Below, piece after piece: positions 1 through 60,389 of a DNA stretch of 64,000 bases (the first letter of the stretch is position 1; each line of letters opens with the position of its first letter). The stretch covers positions 117,329,374-117,393,373 of the forward strand of contig OW804098.1 of the NCBI GenBank assembly GCA_942159475.1, read 5' to 3'. The stretch is from Sthenelais limicola. Taxonomy: Eukaryota > Annelida > Polychaeta > Phyllodocida > Sigalionidae. Below the pieces are notes generated by a model. That model had not been told where the DNA came from. It searched no databases and was given only the letters and a program-made list of their open reading frames with translations. The position numbers and the translations under genes are program-made.

Positions 1-1162
1 TGATATCGTTGACAATTTTCCAAAATTTGTTAGAATCCTTCCTGTTAGCATATAGAACATTTTTATAATATTGTGATTTTAATCGTCTAACTAATTTATT
101 ACAATTGTTCCTCAAGAGGCGTGCAGCACGAATATCCTCCAGACTTTTAGATTTTCTTGCCTTTTTATAGGCTTTTTCTCTAGCTTTGTGAGAGTTAGAT
201 AATTCTACAGTATACCATTTTGGTTTTTCAATAATACCAGTATATTTCTTAAGAGGAGCCAACTTGTTAGCACACCCTTGGATGTTTCGGTCAATTTTTT
301 CCCAGTACTCATTCACATCTTCAGTCCCATTCAGGTCATTCCAGTCTATCCGATTTAGTTTGTTTTCTAGCGTATCATAAGTATATTTTTCGGTAATCTC
401 TTCCTGTAAATTCAATTCTTTTAAATTTCGTATGTATTTTTTTAAAATTTGCCATAACTGGCTGATGATCTGATAGAGAGTAATTTAGTGTTTGAACAGA
501 GACATCCGTTTTCGCATTAATCATGAACAAATCCAGTATCGAGTTTTTCATAAGACCAAACCGGGTAACATCTGTTTCTTTAATTTTTAGATGAAAATTA
601 GAAGCAAATTCCCTTAACATTTTTACTTTATTATATTCTCAAGTAGGTCAATATTGATATCGCCACAAACCACAATATTTTTGTCTTTAATATTCGTATA
701 AGATTTCAAGCAAGTGCGTAAGTCATTCAGAAAAGATTGTACATTACCAGACGGTGGCCTGTATGACACAATGATTTTAAATCGTGGAACATTTTGTTTA
801 TATATATAAAGACTTAGAATTTCACTATCCTTATTAGATATATTACAGTCATCATTAGTACTAAAGTTATAATCTTCTCTAATAAAACAGCAAATTCCTC
901 CGCCACGCGTACCTGGGCTCCTATCTAAGCGTAGGATATTATAACCCTTGCATGATATTAAATTATTAGTTATATTGCCATGTAACCACGACTCTGTAAA
1001 TACCATCACATCAATTCCATTATCCATTATTTCAGTACGAATCGTGTCTATCTTTGGTAGCAGTGAGCGGATATTATATTGAGCTATTTTAATTCCTCGT
1101 ATCCCTTTTAGGTTAGACCAAACCTTAGGTTGGTTGTTTTTGGCTGATTCACACATTGTCAT
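1..1162 (-). pseudogene. Retrotransposon ORF2 N-part: APE-type endonuclease and EN-RT linker (frameshifted)
   Basis: The endonuclease nicks target DNA to prime reverse transcription. Frame 1162-623 gives GIKIAQYNIRSLLPKID (strand-1 block with the catalytic Asn), VFTESWL (catalytic Glu), RGGGICCFIRED, SYRPPSG and VVCGDINID (catalytic D.N). A one-base slip near 635 moves to frame 620-375, which carries LDLFMIN and LSDHQPV (the catalytic SDH block). A second slip near 430 moves to a frame that stays open to position 1 with linker features: EKPKWYTVELSNSHKAREKA, repeated K/A/R-rich helix, LRNNCNKLVRRLKSQYY and DSNKFWKIVND. The reverse transcriptase should follow off the left edge. All catalytic endonuclease residues that I can check are present, so the decay is recent. 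Confidence 0.85.
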
Positions 1163-1725: not shown

Positions 1726-1754
1726 TCAGTTAATTCTGTTAAGGCTATCATGGT

Positions 1755-2349
1755 GGTAATTTTCCATCTGCTTGGCCCAGCTGGTAAGAACAGTCGAGTC
1801 CAAATGTATCCCATCTGTGAGATGATTCAAGTTGTGACGATGCTTTCTTCCCTGCCTGGGATGTACTTTGTTTAGTAGATGAACGTGTCGAATTCCTCTG
1901 CTCCTATTCATCTCAAGAATAAATTTGTTAATTCTTATGATGGCCATATTTATCATGGGTTGGTATCTTGAAGGTCTGATTTTACGATTAGATCTTGCAA
2001 GGTCGATCCCAATGAGACCACCAAAGCAAATCTCACAATTATGTGATATATCCTGAAGAGATTCAAGAGCCTCCTGGTATCGACGCTCCATGCGTGAAAC
2101 AATTCTATCTTCGGTATAATGGCTTAGAGTTATTTTTTTGGTGTGACTATTCCTTATGGAAAAATCGCAGATTCCACCAGCGATCAGGATCTTGGTCGGA
2201 TGATATGTAAAGAAAAGATTCCTGGCCTTTTCACACAAGCGATCCAGTTTTGCCCCACTGTACGAGAAGAATATGATGTCTGGATTATCTAAATAATTAC
2301 TAAGATTCCGCCCCCTCGAGTCAGTAATCACTAGGGTAAGCATGATGTC
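1755..2349 (-). other. SGNH/GDSL-type esterase domain at the ORF1 C-terminus
   Basis: The frame 2526-1726 shows the blocks of an SGNH hydrolase: LVITDSRGRNL (nucleophile Ser in block I), ILIAGGICDF (block III, normally GxND), and LTDGIHLDS (block V, with the catalytic Asp and His two residues apart). CR1-like LINEs are known to carry esterase domains in ORF1, where a role in membrane or lipid contact has been proposed. Asn of block III is replaced by C-D here, so either the copy is damaged or the family differs. The domain sits directly downstream of the NADAR and its basic linker in the same ancestral ORF. Confidence 0.7.
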
Positions 2350-2941
2350 CCTATATTTCTCCGATTGAGTCAGCGGGGAAGTATTGAGCAGTTTTCTCTT
2401 GCTGTTGTAGAGTACTGAGTGAATACAAGTGCGAGTCTTGCAACCGATTGAATTCAAGTAATCTTCGTTCCATTTCAATGGGTGAGGGTCTAGAACGGTC
2501 CAATATACTTGCGTAACTATTCTCATAACTCATAGTCGGTGGTGGAAGGCGTTTGGGAGGATTAAAATAATCCTCTCCACTTCTAAATCTCTTCCTGGCG
2601 TCGTTGATTGTATTGTAATTGTTAGATCTTCTTCCTCCTCCTCACCCACTATTGCGATTCTTTCCTTTTCCTCTGTTCAATTGGCCATCTCCAGTATTTC
2701 TCTGAATTTTGGGGGGCTCTAATCTGAGATTTTGAGGATTTTCGGCATTTGCTTGATTATGGACTGGTTCTTGTTCCTCAATCACTGTCTCCATTTCGGT
2801 CTCATTACTATCATCATCTTTTGGTTTCTCTACGGCTGGTTTGGGGAGCCTTTTTCTGGGTGATTTACTTCCCTCCAGTGGGATCTTATTTCCATCGTCA
2901 TCAACCAGTTCCTTGGGGGGAATGAAAGCCATGCCTTCGTG

Positions 2942-3399
2942 CAAGAATTTTCTGTAATTAGAGATTAGTCTTCCTACGACATTCCATCCCTTGTGTTCAC
3001 CTTTGGATACAAGTTCTGAATTAATTGAGGCACCACATGCCCAAAAAGGGCAGTTTGTGGCTTCGTATAGAGGCATCTGTTCAGTTTGGATTAATTTCTC
3101 TCTAAGGTCTTCATTTTGAGTGAATTTGGCTTCGATCAGGACTCTCATTACATCGATCTTGTCGATATCCCATTGAGGGGAGGAAAATACATTGTGAGAA
3201 AGCCTCTTGGCTTCTCTGGCGTCAAAGCACTCATATATATTTCCTTTGCTGCATCGGGTTTGTTTGCGTCATTAGCTCTCGCAAATTGATAAGCTTGTTC
3301 CAGAGAATGAAACAAAAGGCCATTGATTTCCAATTTACAAGGATAAAAGTTGCTAAGCCAACTATGGGCCGAATGGAAGTAAATCTTGCCATTTATCCT
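2942..3399 (-). other. NADAR (YbiA-like) domain inside ORF1
   Basis: About 153 residues, the usual size of a NADAR domain. In order I see IYFHSAHSWLSNFYPC (the SNFxP signature), FHSLEQAYQFARA (the SxEQ/HxYQ..KA signature), then after the frameshift DAREAKRL, PQWD, VMRVLIEAKFTQN, LREKLIQT, a CPFWACG block in the place of the usual D.(F/Y)WG.G, and WNVVGRLISNYR in the place of N.LG..LM..R. Known NADAR proteins act on N-glycosidic bonds: YbiA in riboflavin-pathway intermediates, other members in removing ADP-ribose from guanine in DNA. The likely catalytic-pocket region (E of SLEQ, W of PFW) is retained. The domain is split by a one-base slip at an AT microsatellite near 3235. Its substrate here is unknown. 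Confidence 0.82.
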
Positions 3400-4125
3400 T
3401 TTGGTCTTTGCGTCGGACAATCGTTTACCCTCAGGGAGTTTTTCTAGCTCGTCATACCTATATGAGTTACCTTCAAAGCGTATTTTGTCCCTGTAAATTG
3501 GGCAATCCGTAATCTCTTGTGAACGCAGATGTGCTTGTACCGTAGACAACATGTCTTTCCGTTCTTGAATGGTAATTGGCAAATCCGGATTAATGTAGAC
3601 TCGATAGTAATCCCTGGATTGTTTCAGCTTTGCACGGTTGGAAAAAACACAATTTCGTGCTTGCTCTGCACACATTTTAACTCTGATTTGTCTGGCCCCA
3701 TTGGATCGACTGTCTATTCTTCTAGCAAAAGTGATGTCCTTTCTGCTAAAACGTGGGTCAATATCTTGTATAATGCTAAGAGCTAGATGTTCGGTATCCT
3801 CAAACCGTGATTCCAAAGCACCCAACAGTAGAAAATTACATTTCCTGTTTTCAACTTCATTCTGAATAAACATGTTCTCATATCTTTTCATCTGTCGTTG
3901 CATTGAAAGCATTTCATTTTCCATAGAATTGGATTGTTGCGATCTAACCCTATCCTTCTGCATTAGTTGCTGGATTAGTGTCTTATAGTAAGACTGATCT
4001 AACTGCGTAAATTCTAGTGAACGTCTGAGTTCTTCAATCGTACATGGATCGTGTATTATTTCAATTTGTTCCCTAGTATAGTTTTTGGAGCTGACTACTT
4101 GTTTTTTATGTGTAGAAAATTTCAA

Positions 4126-4416
4126 AAGATTATACTAAAATATGTAGACTTTATGTATGACAACATGTAGAAGGAGAAGGAGAAGAAGAAGGGCCTTTCT
4201 GGGACAAGTGAATTATAGTGTTTACGATAAAGACTTGTTATGACCCAATGTACACCGTTATATGAACAAGACCATTGTGAATGGTATGTTACAACACATG
4301 GCATTTCCACATACCAGACATAGGATGTACAGGCTGGACAACAGCCTGTGGACACACATTACAATGTACGCTTTCTTATAGTAGCAAACTCACTTATCAA
4401 ATCTCTTCACATCATT
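4126..4416 (-). other. Probable 5' UTR of the retrotransposon
   Basis: No domain-bearing frame. A 77-codon minus frame overlaps the ORF1 start by ATGA, but its product (rich in C, Y, S and F) is not recognisable. This is the interval in which the element's 5' end must lie. Confidence 0.3.
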
Positions 4417-21452: not shown

Positions 21453-22029
21453 CTTCTATAAGATATGATTAGCCATAAGTTATTATGGTGAACTGGATAT
21501 ATTTGACGCTAATACCCACAGGCGATAGGGCCCAGAGTCCAGCCACTGGTTTGGACACTGGGCCCAGCGGTAGTGGTGAGTGTTGTTTAGGGGCTAGCAT
21601 ATGAAATATTTATATCTAAGATATAGGACAAAATATTTTTTTCAACATTGCACATGTTTTTTGTTTTTACTTTCAAGTTGATAATTGTTATACGATTGAG
21701 GATGAATAACTGATGGTTAAGTTCTTCCATCATATTTTTATTTCATAATTATGAACTTATGTTACAACTTATTGCAGGTCAACATTGTTCTGCTCCTTAA
21801 ATTACAATGAGTTTCTAGTTTTGAATAATGAATGGTGTTGATAATGAATACAGTTACTTATTTGAAGGTTTTGTTTTTTTTAAAAAATTTTATTTTCATA
21901 TTAAAAGATGAAAAGAATTTTCCCCTTATTCTTATCCCTTATCATTTTTGAGGAAGACGGACATAGGACATAGGCGAGAGATTGAGCAAGCAGAATTATT
22001 GGGTTTTTTGCAAGTAATATTTTTTTATT
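21453..22029. other. Unassigned sequence inside the foldback element
   Basis: Contains ATAAGATATGATTAGCCATA at about 21461, which resembles a decayed 57-bp minisatellite unit. Otherwise nothing that I can support. Confidence 0.35.
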
Positions 22030-22270
22030 TCATTTTTAAAATGATCTTTATCCTGAATATTTCGAATGATTACTGGTAAATTATTCCAGGTGGCAGCGAC
22101 TTGATAGTGGAGAGAGGATTTGATTTTTCCTTGATAGGCCTAAATGTGGAGAGAATTGGGGCATCATATATTCTGGTTGCTCTAACAATTATTGGGATAG
22201 AGCCTTTTCGTTGTAGTCTTGTTACCTTAAGATAACCCATTTTGGAGAGAAGAAAACTAATTTGCTGGGG
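22030..22270 (-). pseudogene. Non-LTR ORF2 C-terminal remnant
   Basis: On the minus strand a frame reads YQGKIKSSLHYQVAATWNNL followed by PVIIRNIQDKDHFKNEIKKY. This is the usual LINE ORF2 C-terminus (...YxAAxxWNxLPxxIR...FKxxLK). Upstream (plus 22150-22270) the frame is broken by a TAG and shifts. Only the last ~50 residues are recognisable, and the catalytic RT part is absent. Confidence 0.55.
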
Positions 22271-25590: not shown

Positions 25591-27640
25591 GAATTAAGGT
25601 AGCCCCCCCCCACTTATGGTGGGCACAAGAAGGTGGAAGAAGAGGAGGCGTGTGATGACCCCCAATAAGTTATGGTGGGCAGAAGAAGGTGCTAGGGGAG
25701 AAGGATTGTGGTGGCCCACCCATAAGATATTATGGGTAGAGGAGCGTGAGGATTGTGATGGCCCACTCATAAGATATGGTGGGCAAAGTAGAGAGAGATG
25801 GTAATGATTGTTGTGGCCCACTCATTAGATATGGTGGGCAAAGGAGGGAGAGAGGTGGTGAGGATTGTGGTGGCCCCTCCATAAGGTATGGTGGGCAAAG
25901 GAGGGAGAGAGGTGGTGAGGATTGTGGTGGCCCCTCCATAAGGTATGGTGGGCAATGGAGGGTGAGAGGTGGTGAGGATTGTGGTGGCCCCTCCATAAGG
26001 TATGGTGGGCAATGGAGGGTGAGAGGTGGTGAGGATTGTGGTGGCCCACCCATAAGGTATGGTGGGCTGAAGAGGGTGAGAGGTGGTGAGGATCGTGGTG
26101 GCCCCTCCATAAGGTATGGTGGGCAATGGTGGGTGAGAGGTGGTGAGGATTGTGATGTCCCACCCATAAGGTATGGTGGGGTGAAGAGGGTGAGAGGAGA
26201 GGAGGGTTGTGGTGTCCCACCCATAAGGTATGGTGGGCTGAAGAGGGTGAGAGGTGGTGAGGATTGTGGTGGCCCCTCCATAAGGTATGGTGGGCAATGG
26301 AGGGGGAGAGGTGGTGAGGATTGTGGTGGCCCCTCCATAAGGTATGGTGGGCAATGGAGAGTGAGAGGAGAGGAGGGTTGTGGTGTCCCACCCATAAGGT
26401 ATGGTGGGCTGAAGAGGGTGAGAGGTGGTGAGGATTGTGGTGGCCCACCCATAAGGTATGGTGGGCAATGGTGGGTGAGAGGTGGTGAGGAGTGTGGTGG
26501 CCCACCCATAAGGTATGGTGGGCAATGGAGGGTGAGAGGGGAGGAGGGCTGTGGTGTCCCACCCATAAGGTATGGTGGGCTGAAGAGGGTGAGACGAGAG
26601 GAGGATTGTGGTGGCCCACCCATAAGGTATGGTGGGCAATGGTGGGTGAGAGGTGGTGAGGATTGTGGTGTCCCACCCATAAGGTATGGTGGGGTGAAGA
26701 GGGTGAGAGGAGAGGAGGGTTGTGGTGTCCCACCCATAAGGTATGGTGGGCTGAAGAGGGTGAGAGGAGAGGAGGGATGTGGTGGCCCACCCATAAGTTA
26801 TGGTTGGCTGAAGAGGGTGAGAGGAGAGGAGGATTGTGGTGGCCCACCCATAAGGTATGGTGGGCTGAAGAGGGTGAGAGGAGAGGAGGGATGTGGTGGC
26901 CCACCCATAAGTTATGGTTGGCTGAAGAGGGTGAGAGGAGAGGAGGATTGTGGTGGCCCACCCATAAGGTATGGTGGGCTGAAGAGGGTGAGAGGAGAGG
27001 AGGGATGTGGTGGCCCACCCATAAGTTATGGTGGGCTGAAGAGGGTGAGAGGAGAGGAGGGTTGTGGTGGCCCACCCATAAGGTATGGTGGGCTGAAGAG
27101 GGTGAGAAGAGAGGAGGGTTGTGGTGGCCCACCCATAAGTTATGGTGGGCTGAAGAGGGTGGGAGGGGAGGAGGATTGTGGTGGCCCACCCATAAGGTAT
27201 GGTGGGCTGAAGAGGGTGAGAGGGGAGGAGGGCTGTGGTGTCCCACCCATAAGGTATGGTGGGCTGAAGAGGGTGAGAGGAGAGGAGGGTTGTGGTGGCC
27301 CACTCATAAGTTATGGTGGGCTGAAGAGGGTGGGAGGGGAGGAGGATTGTGGTGGCCCACCCATAAGGTATGGTGGGCTGAAGAGGGTGAGAGGGGAGGA
27401 GGGTTGTGGTGTCCCACCCATAAGGTATGGTGGGCAATAGAGGGGGAGAGGGGAGTAGGGTTGTGGGGTCCCACCCATAAGGTATGGTGGGCTGAAAAGG
27501 GTGAGAGGGGAGGAGGATTGTGGTGTCCCACCCATAAGGTATGGTGGGCTGAAGAGGGTGAGAGGAGAGGAGGATTGTGGTGTCCCACCCATAAGTTATG
27601 GTGGGCTGAAGAGGGTGAGAGGAGAGGAGGGTCTGCCAAC
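25590..27640 (-). repeat. 57-bp minisatellite, right array (~36 units)
   Basis: Reverse complement of the left-array unit (GTGGCCCACCCATAAGGTAT, GGTGGGCTGAAGAGGGTGAG, AGGAGAGGAGGATT). The left part carries CCCTCCATAAGG units with GGGCAATGGAGGG. From about 26770 to 27060, units with GTTATGGTTGGC alternate with GGTATGGTGGGC units at 114-bp spacing. Purine/pyrimidine strand asymmetry is strong. Open frames of up to 556 codons are side effects of the 57-bp (19-codon) period. Confidence 0.9.
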
Positions 27641-27971
27641 TGTTCCCACGATAAGCTATGGTGGGTCAGGGACAAACCCTTGTTTGTCCACTTTAAGCCC
27701 ATATATAATGGGGGGGGACAAGAGAGAGAAACCCCATAAGTTATGGGAGGGATAGTGTGTCATTGGGTGCAACATATATATAGTAAGGCTTGGAACATAT
27801 TATTTGTACCTAAAAGCAGTGTAAGAAAAGGAGGCATCCTGTATACTTGAAAACATATTTGAACATATTTGTATTTTGAGTCTTGATTCTGGGGAACGTA
27901 TCGCTAAAGCATTGACATTATTGATATACTTTAGTGAAATTTGATTGTTTATGTAATTTACTTGCTACAAA

Positions 27972-52609: not shown

Positions 52610-53015
52610 TGTGATGTGTTCCAGGAAAATCATGAGTCGCAAAATTTATATTTTTCATGGTGTTTTATTTACAAAATGTCTTTATTGAAATGTTCTGATT
52701 TTTAGAGGGTTTAGCACTCATAGTCATAAGAATGTATGTATCAAATTTCAGGACATTGTATTAAATATATCCTTCCGTTTTGATGGCCTTCATATGGAGT
52801 ATATCTAGTTACTTTACTGATAATTACCCATCCAGAAACATTGCAAACTTTTTTTTCCAAAAAGAAAATATCAAACTTAAAATATAGAAATACTTCTTAA
52901 ATGTCCTTCATGTTTACTATCATTGGAATCGGATTGATCTCATCTTTTCGAATATGGTGATATCTCAAAATCCATTTTTTGCGACTTATGACTCATTTTC
53001 CTAAAACGGATCACA
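52610..53015 (-). repeat. M1 MITE, full-length copy
   Basis: TGTGATGTGTTCCAGG at the left; the right end is the CCTAAAACGGATCACA variant. Its right border is the insertion site of the retrotransposon that follows. Confidence 0.8.
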
Positions 53016-53016
53016 A

Positions 53017-54768
53017 ATGGTTACATGGTTCTGGAGAACGATTGAAGAAATAGAAAATAAAAAGAAAAGTGAGATAACAAAAATAGTTAATGACAGCAAT
53101 GTAACACTTCTAGGTGTGGAAGCAGCAAACAAACTTAATAACTTTTACTGTAATATTGGCACAAAGACTGCCGAAAAAATCCCTCCCTCTACTTATACAA
53201 GAACAAACTATAACATAGTACATAACTACACAGTGCCCATTGTTGACAGGGAAAAGGTCTCGTCGATCATCAGAGACATTGGAATCACCAAGAGCTCTGG
53301 TTGTGAAAAAGTATCGGCTAGGATTTATAAAGACTCCTTTATTATTTTACTAGAACAGTTACTACATGTTTTCAGGTCCTCTGTAGCTACTGGTATTTAT
53401 CCATCTGCATGGAAACATAGTATTGTCAAACCCCTTCCGAAAAAGTCAATAGCCAAAACACCAAACGATACTAGACCAATATCCCTAACCCATATTGCAG
53501 GCAAAATTCTGGAAAAAATAATTGTCTTACACCTAACCGAGCATTTAGAGCATAATAACCTACTAAGCAAATTCCAGCTGGGATTCCAAAAGGGTCATAG
53601 CACAAGTGAGGCTATTTACAACTTAGTTACTGATATAAATAAATCTATGCATATGAAAGAATATACATTAGCCTGTTTTATTGACTTTAGCAAAGCCTTC
53701 GATTGTGTAAATCATGACATTCTATTAATGAAGCTCTCGGACCTAGGAATCAATGAATTATTTTTGGCTTGGTTTGACTCATATCTGAAAAATAGGACGC
53801 AAATGGTGAAAATCCAAGGCTACACTTCTTCCGAAGGGGTAATACCAATAGGCGTACCCCAGGGATCCGTCCTTGGCCCACTACTCTTTTTGGTATATGT
53901 AAACGACATCAAAGATCTAAATATGACCTGTAAATATATACAATATGCCGACGACACCGTACTCTATCATACAAACATCGATATTAATACATGTGAGCAG
54001 ACTGTCGCCTCTGATATTGTCAAATTCTGTGAATGGTGTAAATGCAGCAGACTGTCACTAAATGTTGCCAAAACCAAGCTCCTGGTATTCAACACTAAGC
54101 ATAAAAACCAAACACCGAATGTGGATATAAGGGTGGGTGGATCGGTCCTCCAACAGGTAGAATCATACGAGTACTTGGGTATCAAATTGGATTCGCATCT
54201 TACAATGATAGGGCAATTTAACGCCCTGATTAGGCAAATCAACTATAAACTATATACTTTTAACAAGATTAGAAAAAATTTAGATACTAAAACTGCGATT
54301 ATGCTATGCAAGTCCAAAATCATTTCCATTTTTGACTACAGTCTGTCAGTACTGTCCTGCCTTAACCAGGGCAATATAAGCAGACTGCAAAAACTTCAGA
54401 ACCGAATCCTTAGAAGTGCAACTAACTCTGATATCAGAACACCCATACTTGCTTTACATGCTGAGACAAAAACCATGTTGATAAGAAACAGAATGATTTA
54501 TAACAACCTGAAATTAGCTCATGGCAAGATTTATAATGCACAAAATGATGCTACAAATCAAGATCAAAGAAATACTCGTCAAAATGCTGCCCCCACCCTT
54601 CCAACATTCATCCCCAAAACTGAAAAAGATAAAAACTCGTTGGCATACCAGTGCGCTAGGGAATGGAACAGGTTAGAACCTGCATTAAGGAGATTAACAA
54701 CCCCTAAGGAATTTAGTGCTGCATTAAAATCAAGAATCATAAGGGGTACTTTACCCAATATGCACTAG
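53017..54768 (+). CDS. Reverse transcriptase part of LINE ORF2 (5'-truncated, frame intact)
   Basis: 583 codons without interruption. It copies element RNA into DNA at the nicked target. Motifs: RPISL at 153-157 (RT block 1 region), FQLGFQKGHST at 186-196, FIDFSKAFDCVNH at 221-233 (first catalytic Asp), GVPQGSVLGPLLFLVYVND at 279-297, YADDT at 310-314 (catalytic pair), LSLNVAKTKLL at 346-356, EYLGIKLD at 385-392. The C-terminal part has LQKLQNRILR and AREWNRLEPALR. The group is Jockey/CR1-like. The first three codons (M-V-T) come from the target-site duplication, so the ATG is accidental and the protein lacks the endonuclease; it is unlikely to be functional alone. Whether it is the same family as the left-edge element is not decidable, because the overlap is only a few residues (NKFWKIVND versus WFWRTIEE). 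Confidence 0.9.
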   Translation: MVTWFWRTIEEIENKKKSEITKIVNDSNVTLLGVEAANKLNNFYCNIGTKTAEKIPPSTYTRTNYNIVHNYTVPIVDREKVSSIIRDIGITKSSGCEKVSARIYKDSFIILLEQLLHVFRSSVATGIYPSAWKHSIVKPLPKKSIAKTPNDTRPISLTHIAGKILEKIIVLHLTEHLEHNNLLSKFQLGFQKGHSTSEAIYNLVTDINKSMHMKEYTLACFIDFSKAFDCVNHDILLMKLSDLGINELFLAWFDSYLKNRTQMVKIQGYTSSEGVIPIGVPQGSVLGPLLFLVYVNDIKDLNMTCKYIQYADDTVLYHTNIDINTCEQTVASDIVKFCEWCKCSRLSLNVAKTKLLVFNTKHKNQTPNVDIRVGGSVLQQVESYEYLGIKLDSHLTMIGQFNALIRQINYKLYTFNKIRKNLDTKTAIMLCKSKIISIFDYSLSVLSCLNQGNISRLQKLQNRILRSATNSDIRTPILALHAETKTMLIRNRMIYNNLKLAHGKIYNAQNDATNQDQRNTRQNAAPTLPTFIPKTEKDKNSLAYQCAREWNRLEPALRRLTTPKEFSAALKSRIIRGTLPNMH

Positions 54769-59150: not shown

Positions 59151-59225
59151 AACAAGTTAGTTGACAGATTTATTATACATGCTTTCAATCATGAAAATCG
59201 TGTATAATAAAAATAATATAAAGAA

Positions 59226-60018
59226 GGAACTTGTATCAGCCACTGTGTATGCCTGAAGTGAAGGGTTATAGAATAGGGGACTTGTATCAGCCACTGTGTA
59301 TGCCTGAAGTGAAGGGTTATAGAATAGGGGACTTGTATCAGCCACTGTGTATGTCTGAAGTGAAGGGTTATAAAATAGGGGACTTGTATCAGCCACTGTG
59401 TATGTCTGAAGTGAAGGGTTATAGAATAGGGGACTTGTATCAGCCACTGTGTATGTCTGAAGTGAAGGGTTATAGAATAGGGGACTTGTATCAGCCATTG
59501 TGTATGTCTGAAGTGAAGGGTTATAGAATAGGGGACTTGTTTCAGACACTGTGTATACCTGAAGTGAAGGGTTATAGAATAGGGGACTTGTATCAGGCAC
59601 TGTGTATTTCTGAAGTGAAGGGTTATACAATAGGGGACTTGTATCAGCCACTGTGTATGTCTGAAGTGAAGGGTTATAGAATAGGGGACTTGTATCTGCC
59701 ACTGTGTATGCCTGAAGTGAAGGGTTATAGAATAGGGGACTTGTATCAGGCACTGTGTATTTCTGAAGTGAAGGGTTATACAATAGGGGACTTGTATCAG
59801 CCACTGTGTATGTCTGAAGTGAAGGGTTATACAATAGGGGACTTGTATCAGCCACTGTGTATGTCTGAAGTGAAGGGTTATACAATAGGGGACTTGTATC
59901 AGCCACTGTGTATGTCTGAAGTGAAGGGTTATAGAATAGGGGACTTGTATCAGCCACTGTGTATGCCTGAAGTGAAGGGTTATAGAATAGGGGACTTGTA
60001 TCAGCCACTATATCTATA
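59226..60018 (+). repeat. 51-bp satellite, block 2 (~15.5 units)
   Basis: Unit: AATAGGGGACTTGTATCAGC, CACTGTGTATGTCTGAAGTG, AAGGGTTATAG. The first 35 bases match the M3 end AATAGGGGATTTGCATGTGC, CACTGCGCATGTCTG, with C/T changes and one two-base difference. Variants (CCTGAAGTG, ATTTCTGAAG, TACAATAGG) recur in an ordered way. Frames of 262 codons (+) and 283 codons (-) are by-products. Confidence 0.9.
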
Positions 60019-60389
60019 ATAGATACCTTGAGGGAAAGGCAATGACAGAAATCTATCCAATGCCTTTAACAATAGGCTTCCCACATGAATAAACGTGCAG
60101 GTCAATGGGGAATGTATTTAGTGACATCTCAGAAAATGAGATTCATTCCTCTTCCACCAAAAACCATATCAGATATTCTGCATAATTTATTATCTTGTCA
60201 TTAATTTGGGCAGATTTCCGCCTTTTTCCCTTCTTTTTCCCATCCGTCATTTGACCATAATAACTTAAACTACTTTTGAACTCCCATGGCTCTGTGTGTA
60301 GAGGGTAGTAGACCGTCCTTATTGTTAAGGTTAAAGATTGGCTGGGGACCTGAGCATGCAAGCCAAATGGGCAATATTATTGTATTATA
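60019..60389. other. Unassigned sequence
   Basis: No element that I can support; a short 72-codon minus frame has no recognisable product. Confidence 0.3.

Follow-up and report, generated by a model that had tools for sequence, protein, structure and literature searches.

NADAR domains hydrolyse guanosine-linked ADP-ribose (guanosine-ADPr) in DNA (PMC11543638) and are described as the only hydrolase family found to reverse guanosine-ADPr in RNA, being inactive on ADP-ribose at phosphate ends (PMC11833690). YbiA and the phage NADARs tested also reverse guanosine-ADPr (PMC11125620), and the YbiA-type NADARs of bacteria and plants act in addition on riboflavin intermediates, at an N-glycosidic bond (PMC11543638). 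What NADARs do in eukaryotes, including animals, has been called unclear (PMC11125620). For eukaryotic RNA viruses, the NADAR and macro domains have been argued to target host ADP-ribosylation of macromolecules (PMC9503650). The animal positive-strand RNA viruses discussed there resemble the LINEs described below in having a NADAR in the replication protein of an RNA parasite, as a proposed counter to host ADP-ribosylation, but it lies in a polyprotein rather than in an ORF1 nucleic-acid chaperone.

Among the open-access papers examined, NADARs in retrotransposons are mentioned only in PMC12477816 (2025), which has one passage on Tx1 ORF1s of the oyster Crassostrea gigas. As described there, several families of these LINEs carry a YbiA-family NADAR in ORF1, with an unclear role for which RNA processing is suggested. 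The NADAR-ORF1 fusion itself is therefore not new. The same paper notes a NADAR in the Pol protein of an Ectocarpus Gypsy element; this too was recruited by a retrotransposon, but by an LTR element and into another protein and position, and is presumably a separate recruitment. Type II (L1-type) ORF1s and reticulate exchange of ORF1s have been described in the Jockey superfamily (Metcalfe and Casane 2014, PMC4120745), so that the coiled coil, RRM and CTD of our elements have counterparts outside the L1 group, in LINEs of the CR1/L2 lineage. Within that superfamily the same study places esterase ORF1s only in vertebrate groups; the LINEs here differ by their NADAR, and neither the word NADAR nor the word DUF occurs in its main text, which surveys 448 elements. 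What is new here, as far as the literature searches reach, is the NADAR fusion as the established form of ORF1 in many LINE families of a single genome, its association with non-L1 reverse transcriptases (RTs) where tested, the evidence for selection and pocket conservation, the probable existence of more than one NADAR lineage, and an optional SGNH ORF.

The window analysed, a stretch of 64,000 nucleotides from the annelid Sthenelais limicola, contains at its left end, on the minus strand, a decayed copy of an APE-type LINE. From the 5' end of the element the order is ORF1, a separate SGNH-like ORF, a spacer and ORF2 (APE/RT), with the following features:

3148..4134, minus strand: ORF1 frame piece of 328 aa with RRM, CTD and the first third of NADAR (ORF list, relatives).
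3421..3984, minus strand: end of the L1-type coiled coil, RRM and CTD of ORF1 (RRM/CTD profile from 22 relatives, E 2e-37 to 6e-38).
3229..3417, minus strand: NADAR part 1 (profile 1–63), with SNFYPC and SLEQAYQFAR, which hold the E43 and K/R50 positions (relatives' profile, E 2e-18).
3229..3241, minus strand: meeting zone of the two NADAR frames, a frameshift in the window copy (ORFs and profile).
2939..3241, minus strand: NADAR part 2 (profile 59–159), with the W89, E125 and W133 positions, in a frame other than that of part 1 (relatives' profile, E 1e-27).
2642..2938, minus strand: charged ORF1 tail with RG repeats, in the same frame as NADAR part 2 (ORFs, relatives).
2351..2641, minus strand: remaining ORF1 tail in a different frame, after a second frame change near 2641 (ORFs, relatives).
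2353-2351, minus strand: apparent ORF1 stop, TAG (read from the sequence).
1744..2343, minus strand: SGNH/GDSL-like hydrolase ORF with ATG at 2343-2341 and DSRG, GGIC and DGxH blocks (profile; Pfam 16.2 bits, below cut-off).
2..1156, minus strand: ORF2 with AP-endonuclease and the start of the reverse transcriptase region, frameshifted, extending left beyond the window (locus L009; Pfam, profile).

Homology of ORF1 to its family starts at about 4080, and some 75 residues at the N-terminus of intact relatives have no counterpart in the frame 3148-4134. The NADAR as a whole spans 2939-3417 and is broken by the one frameshift. No second NADAR or RRM was found by profile scan of the window, and Rfam gave 0 matches at gathering scores.

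The preliminary description had identified this domain by conserved blocks, and SNFYPC, SLEQAYQ, VMRVLIEAKFTQN, FWACG and NVVGRLI are indeed present on the minus strand in family order. The identification also holds by profile: Pfam NADAR (PF08719, cut-off 35.1 bits) matched the frame at 2642-3268 with 56.1 bits (E 6.8e-15, profile 65-162). The frame at 3148-4134 scored 17.6 bits, below the cut-off, over profile positions 8-69, which adjoin the other piece. A chance match is ruled out by the E values of the Pfam and relatives' profiles. When the window piece was compared with the PDB, the only matches at E<=1 were weak ones to the NADAR entries 8bau (E 0.012) and 2b3w (E 0.044), while a profile of 22 ORF1s reached E 2.4e-26 and 8e-21 with the same two entries. 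PF08719 scored all 22 of these ORF1s, and gave 112–115 bits for proteins P0001-P0003. The domain in the window LINE is thus a genuine NADAR.

Intact relatives have a single ORF1 that consists of a coiled coil, an L1-type RRM/CTD, a NADAR towards the C-terminal side and a charged tail. These single open frames bear out the earlier proposal that coiled coil/RRM and NADAR once shared one frame in the window copy. The profile of 22 ORF1s also matched the L1 ORF1p structure 2yko (E 1.8e-4, profile positions 38-156), and this ORF1 is, as predicted from its domains, an L1-type (Type II) RNA-binding protein carrying NADAR. Human L1 ORF1p is a trimer, and LINE ORF1 proteins are thought of as RNA chaperones.

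The SGNH domain had been assigned to the same frame as well, and this does not hold. In intact relatives of several families it forms a separate ORF that follows, or overlaps the end of, ORF1, and in the window the apparent ORF1 stop ends 7 nt before the SGNH ATG. The SGNH-like domain itself covers 1744-2529. The DSRG, GGIC and DGxH blocks are kept in seven SGNH rows, with DSRG and DGxH invariant and GGIC in the place expected for the Asn block. Pfam GDSL gave 16–17 bits in the window and L012 (cut-off 32.9) and no match in L017, L027, L028 and P0004. By profile scan, SGNH was absent from loci L011, L016, L018, L022 and L025. Since the SGNH ORF is separate in several families and absent from these five loci, NADAR is the constant partner and SGNH an optional one. 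Its presence in several of the NADAR-LINEs sets them apart from the Crassostrea gigas Tx1 LINEs as described in PMC12477816.

Where ORF2 is in one frame, it encodes an APE-RT protein of about 950–1080 aa. In the RT tree, which left out L018, P0149, P0165 and P0177 (they are without the motif used for trimming), 11 NADAR-LINE RTs belonged to a group of 55 rows that stood apart from human L1, from R2 and from two LINEs bearing RNase H (support 99/96). A single clade of the 11 RTs was not rejected by the AU test (p 0.22), whereas a clade joining them to human L1 was (p 0.00066), in a comparison that included no Tx1 sequence. ORF2 length and the WN-LP type C-terminus fit the Jockey superfamily (CR1/L2-like); this is a putative placement by ORF2 layout, and the RT tree, which has no named CR1, L2 or Jockey references, speaks only against L1. 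The oyster elements, compared by description only, are reported as Tx1 and hence of the L1 group, and so differ from our 11 RTs (PMC12477816). The window holds further ORF2 remains outside the NADAR-LINE copy. At 53005-54768 (+) there is another LINE ORF2 of the same kind, 5'-truncated, with a 587-aa open frame (RVT_1 129 bits), and at 22002-22130 (-) a scrap of the 3' end of a related ORF2 (34 bits). Two other stretches, 25730-27739 and 59157-60065, look like minisatellite arrays, with peptides repeated in overlapping frames on both strands.

The Sthenelais limicola genome (1.13 Gb) was searched with PF08719. Of 5561 first-look candidates, 150 were scored; all 150 exceeded the Pfam cut-off, with 104–119 bits over most of the 163 profile positions, and 148 had no stop inside the match. 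With window:2642-3268 as the query, at least 22 further places were found among the matches listed, at 72–87% identity, 18 of them without a stop. An RRM+NADAR query from one intact family turned up 5933 candidates, of which 102 were scored as copies. NADAR was covered to its end in 95 of these; among the others six stopped early and contained stops and one was an open frame with a NADAR gap. Because this query contains NADAR, it is biased towards NADAR-bearing copies. The fairest test is an ORF1 query that holds no NADAR, which is also free of bias towards canonical domains. At least 108 of the 150 places found in this way had a NADAR match 153–396 nt downstream, among the matches listed. Twelve of the other 42 were fetched, and NADAR was present in all 12: over most of the domain in nine, including L064, which lacks four NADAR residues, and broken or cut short in L057, L065 and L066. 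No ORF1 of this kind wholly without NADAR was seen among the places examined (the 108 and the 12 fetched, of 150). NADAR therefore stands in nearly every related ORF1 examined. The preliminary description had allowed for a domain confined to this one copy; the surveys (95/102, at least 108/150, 12/12) find it in the other copies and rule out a one-off capture of a host fragment. In three pairs, two copies from different contigs agree at 98–99% over 6.2–7.2 kb, so some elements are young or have recently moved. Two individual loci may be mentioned here. An ORF1 copy at G000:C2:73409823-73410704 (+) has an open frame of 541 aa from which 82 NADAR residues are missing; as a single copy it says little. 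At G000:C5:1144400-1226551, four equal-scoring ORF1 copies lie on one strand about 24–29 kb apart, an arrangement that may stem from tandem segmental duplication of a stretch including the LINE.

Purifying selection on the domain was measured between pairs with at least 35 shared 4-mers in NADAR and open frames of at least 450 aa (L002 was left out, and many far pairs were saturated in dS). In 12 pairs with finite NADAR dS (0.4–2.6), dN/dS was 0.01–0.07 for NADAR and 0.12–0.46 for the tail. In a separate comparison within the window's family, four pairs with finite dS above 1 gave NADAR ratios of 0.04–0.09, and two close pairs (dS 0.12–0.14) gave 0.16 and 0.21, very close pairs being noisy and higher in dN/dS. 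NADAR identity exceeded RRM+CTD identity in 213 of 231 pairs, and in the 145 pairs with RRM+CTD identity below 30%, the means were 34% for NADAR and 20% for RRM+CTD. All invariant columns were within NADAR, both in the 27-row ORF1 alignment (13/13) and in the 22-row one (20/20). The 45 LINE NADARs of the genome that were compared form 19 clusters at 80% identity. NADAR in the LINE ORF1 is thus kept by strong purifying selection: across the 19 clusters of copies compared in one genome, conservation within ORF1 is highest in this enzyme-type domain, and its known relatives take ADP-ribose off guanine.

Pocket residues, numbered as in the P. nicotianae NADAR (PMC11543638), were read in 45 rows: 39 LINE loci of the genome, five database ORF1s and one lone NADAR (L045). 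These counts lean towards canonical domains, since the 39 loci were picked from the 150 best PF08719 scores. E43 is present in 45/45 rows and E125 in 44/45, and the window copy has Glu at both, so that the pair of glutamates predicted to hold the distal ribose is intact. Glu at 125 makes this NADAR YbiA-like in type; DarT1-type NADARs have Asp there. W89 (45/45), W133 (43/45) and K75 (44/45) are likewise kept. Position 50 is K in 23 rows, R in 20, Q in one and E in one, and position 130 is D in 39 and N in six. R79 and R93 of the P. nicotianae enzyme are not kept as such. R at 50, as in the window copy, and C at 130 mark the window's family (TNCPFWACG or close, in 6/6 fetched relatives). The putative residues for binding and processing ADP-ribose are thus retained. 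DarT1-associated NADAR antitoxins and YbiA belong to the same domain family, and their E43, K50 and E125 positions are largely kept in the LINE NADARs, but they are stand-alone enzymes.

In our estimate there is about an even chance that the ORF1p NADAR removes ADP-ribose from guanine in the element's RNA or cDNA. ORF1p would load NADAR along the element RNA, and later the cDNA; NADAR would hydrolyse ADP-ribose off the guanine bases; and the cleaned template would stay readable by the element's reverse transcriptase despite ADP-ribosyltransferases, of the host or of invaders, that act on nucleic acid. The ORF1 NADAR would in this way be the retrotransposon counterpart of the NADAR and macro domains in animal RNA viruses. 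The enzyme CARP-1 comes from clams. Pierisin/CARP-like enzymes, as named in PMC11543638 and PMC11833690, would be candidate opponents. Published work on how NADARs act on guanosine-ADPr, in DNA as well as in RNA (PMC11543638, PMC11833690), agrees with this role, and also with the wider one of the preliminary description, which took in target DNA. Counting against it are the Cys at D130 and Arg at K50 in the window's family, the K95R mutant of the E. coli C7 NADAR, which kept hydrolysis in vitro and did not rescue from DarT1 (PMC11543638), the riboflavin activity of YbiA-type NADARs, the higher dN/dS of close pairs and the NADAR gap at C2:73409823.

The departure at D130 in the window's family, and the Arg for K50 in 20/45 rows, would also suit a non-catalytic binding module that recognises ADP-ribose or RNA, or that keeps the RNP assembled, and whose fold is what selection keeps. 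ORF1p has a structural RNA-binding protein among its relatives, and in SNA-3, a nematode RNP protein in which NADAR occurs three times, the key residues are missing from NADAR 1 (PMC9303266). Yet both ribose-binding glutamates belong to the small set of columns that stay invariant or almost so, even though most pairs have diverged so far in RRM+CTD, a pure scaffold has no need of such a pocket, and pocket-residue mutations in NADAR 2 and 3 of SNA-3 impaired its function (PMC9303266), which leaves a binding role rather unlikely. We consider it still less probable that the domain damps a host alarm, instead of cleaning the template, by acting either on NAD-capped RNA or on a small molecule (cyclic ADP-ribose, a derivative of ADP-ribose or a signal made from NAD). 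Such an activity has been proposed for phage NADARs (PMC9503650) and would accord with the N-glycosidic work on riboflavin intermediates in bacteria and plants (PMC11543638), but with an RNA-binding protein as its fusion partner the domain more plausibly has nucleic acid as its substrate, in cis, and the authors of PMC9503650 favour macromolecular adducts for the animal RNA viruses. That the domain is a functionless fragment of a host gene, caught by chance in the window copy or its family, is very improbable: the window copy is frameshifted, as such a fragment might be, but purifying selection, the copy surveys, the spread over 19 clusters and the presence of NADAR in five database ORF1s on other contigs (P0005-P0009) all go against it.

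P0005-P0009 share RRM, CTD and NADAR, and were the only five proteins at E<=1e-5 among 2022 candidates. In the NADAR trees, P0008 and P0009 were placed near the oomycete enzyme among further NADARs, some of them stand-alone, and the rest were closer to YbiA. A single clade containing every LINE NADAR was rejected (AU p 0.00065, hand-picked 61 rows), which we read as at least two captures, or else exchange of the domain inside a fusion already formed. Six of the rows (P0010, P0012, P0013, P0017, P0021 and P0029) were relabelled as LINE after the first NADAR tree was seen; P0013 and P0017 do not match RRM/CTD at all, and the matches of P0010, P0021 and P0029 cover only the last 34–36 positions of that profile. 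P0008 and P0009, which have a clear RRM, show the same split. Not included in the first NADAR tree were the two window pieces, roughly half of P0031-P0129, and 12 loci presumed to be near-copies. More than one NADAR capture by LINE ORF1s is thus likely from these trees, a conclusion weakened by long branches and the relabelled rows.

Tentatively, NADAR may be a recurrent counter-defence module of retrotransposons, taken up more than once by LINE ORF1s and acting as a guanine de-ADP-ribosylase in cis, on element RNA or cDNA; we hold this possible rather than probable. A so far undescribed host defence that ADP-ribosylates the nucleic acid of mobile elements would then be implied. Given the match to the animal RNA virus pattern (PMC9503650), ADP-ribosylation-based defence against selfish RNAs could become directly testable, and a retrotransposon that keeps NADAR in its RNA-binding protein offers a concrete place to look for eukaryotic NADAR roles.

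The genome also contains a NADAR of another kind. L045 (G000:C1:94854654-94856879) is a stand-alone NADAR ORF of 162 aa, with no RRM in the 2.2 kb fetched and, beside it, a 132-aa ORF that has no Pfam match. Its NADAR groups away from the LINE NADARs of the Sthenelais limicola genome. Two further 162-aa NADAR frames on the same contig, at C1:89380390 and C1:66983187, are perhaps also stand-alone.
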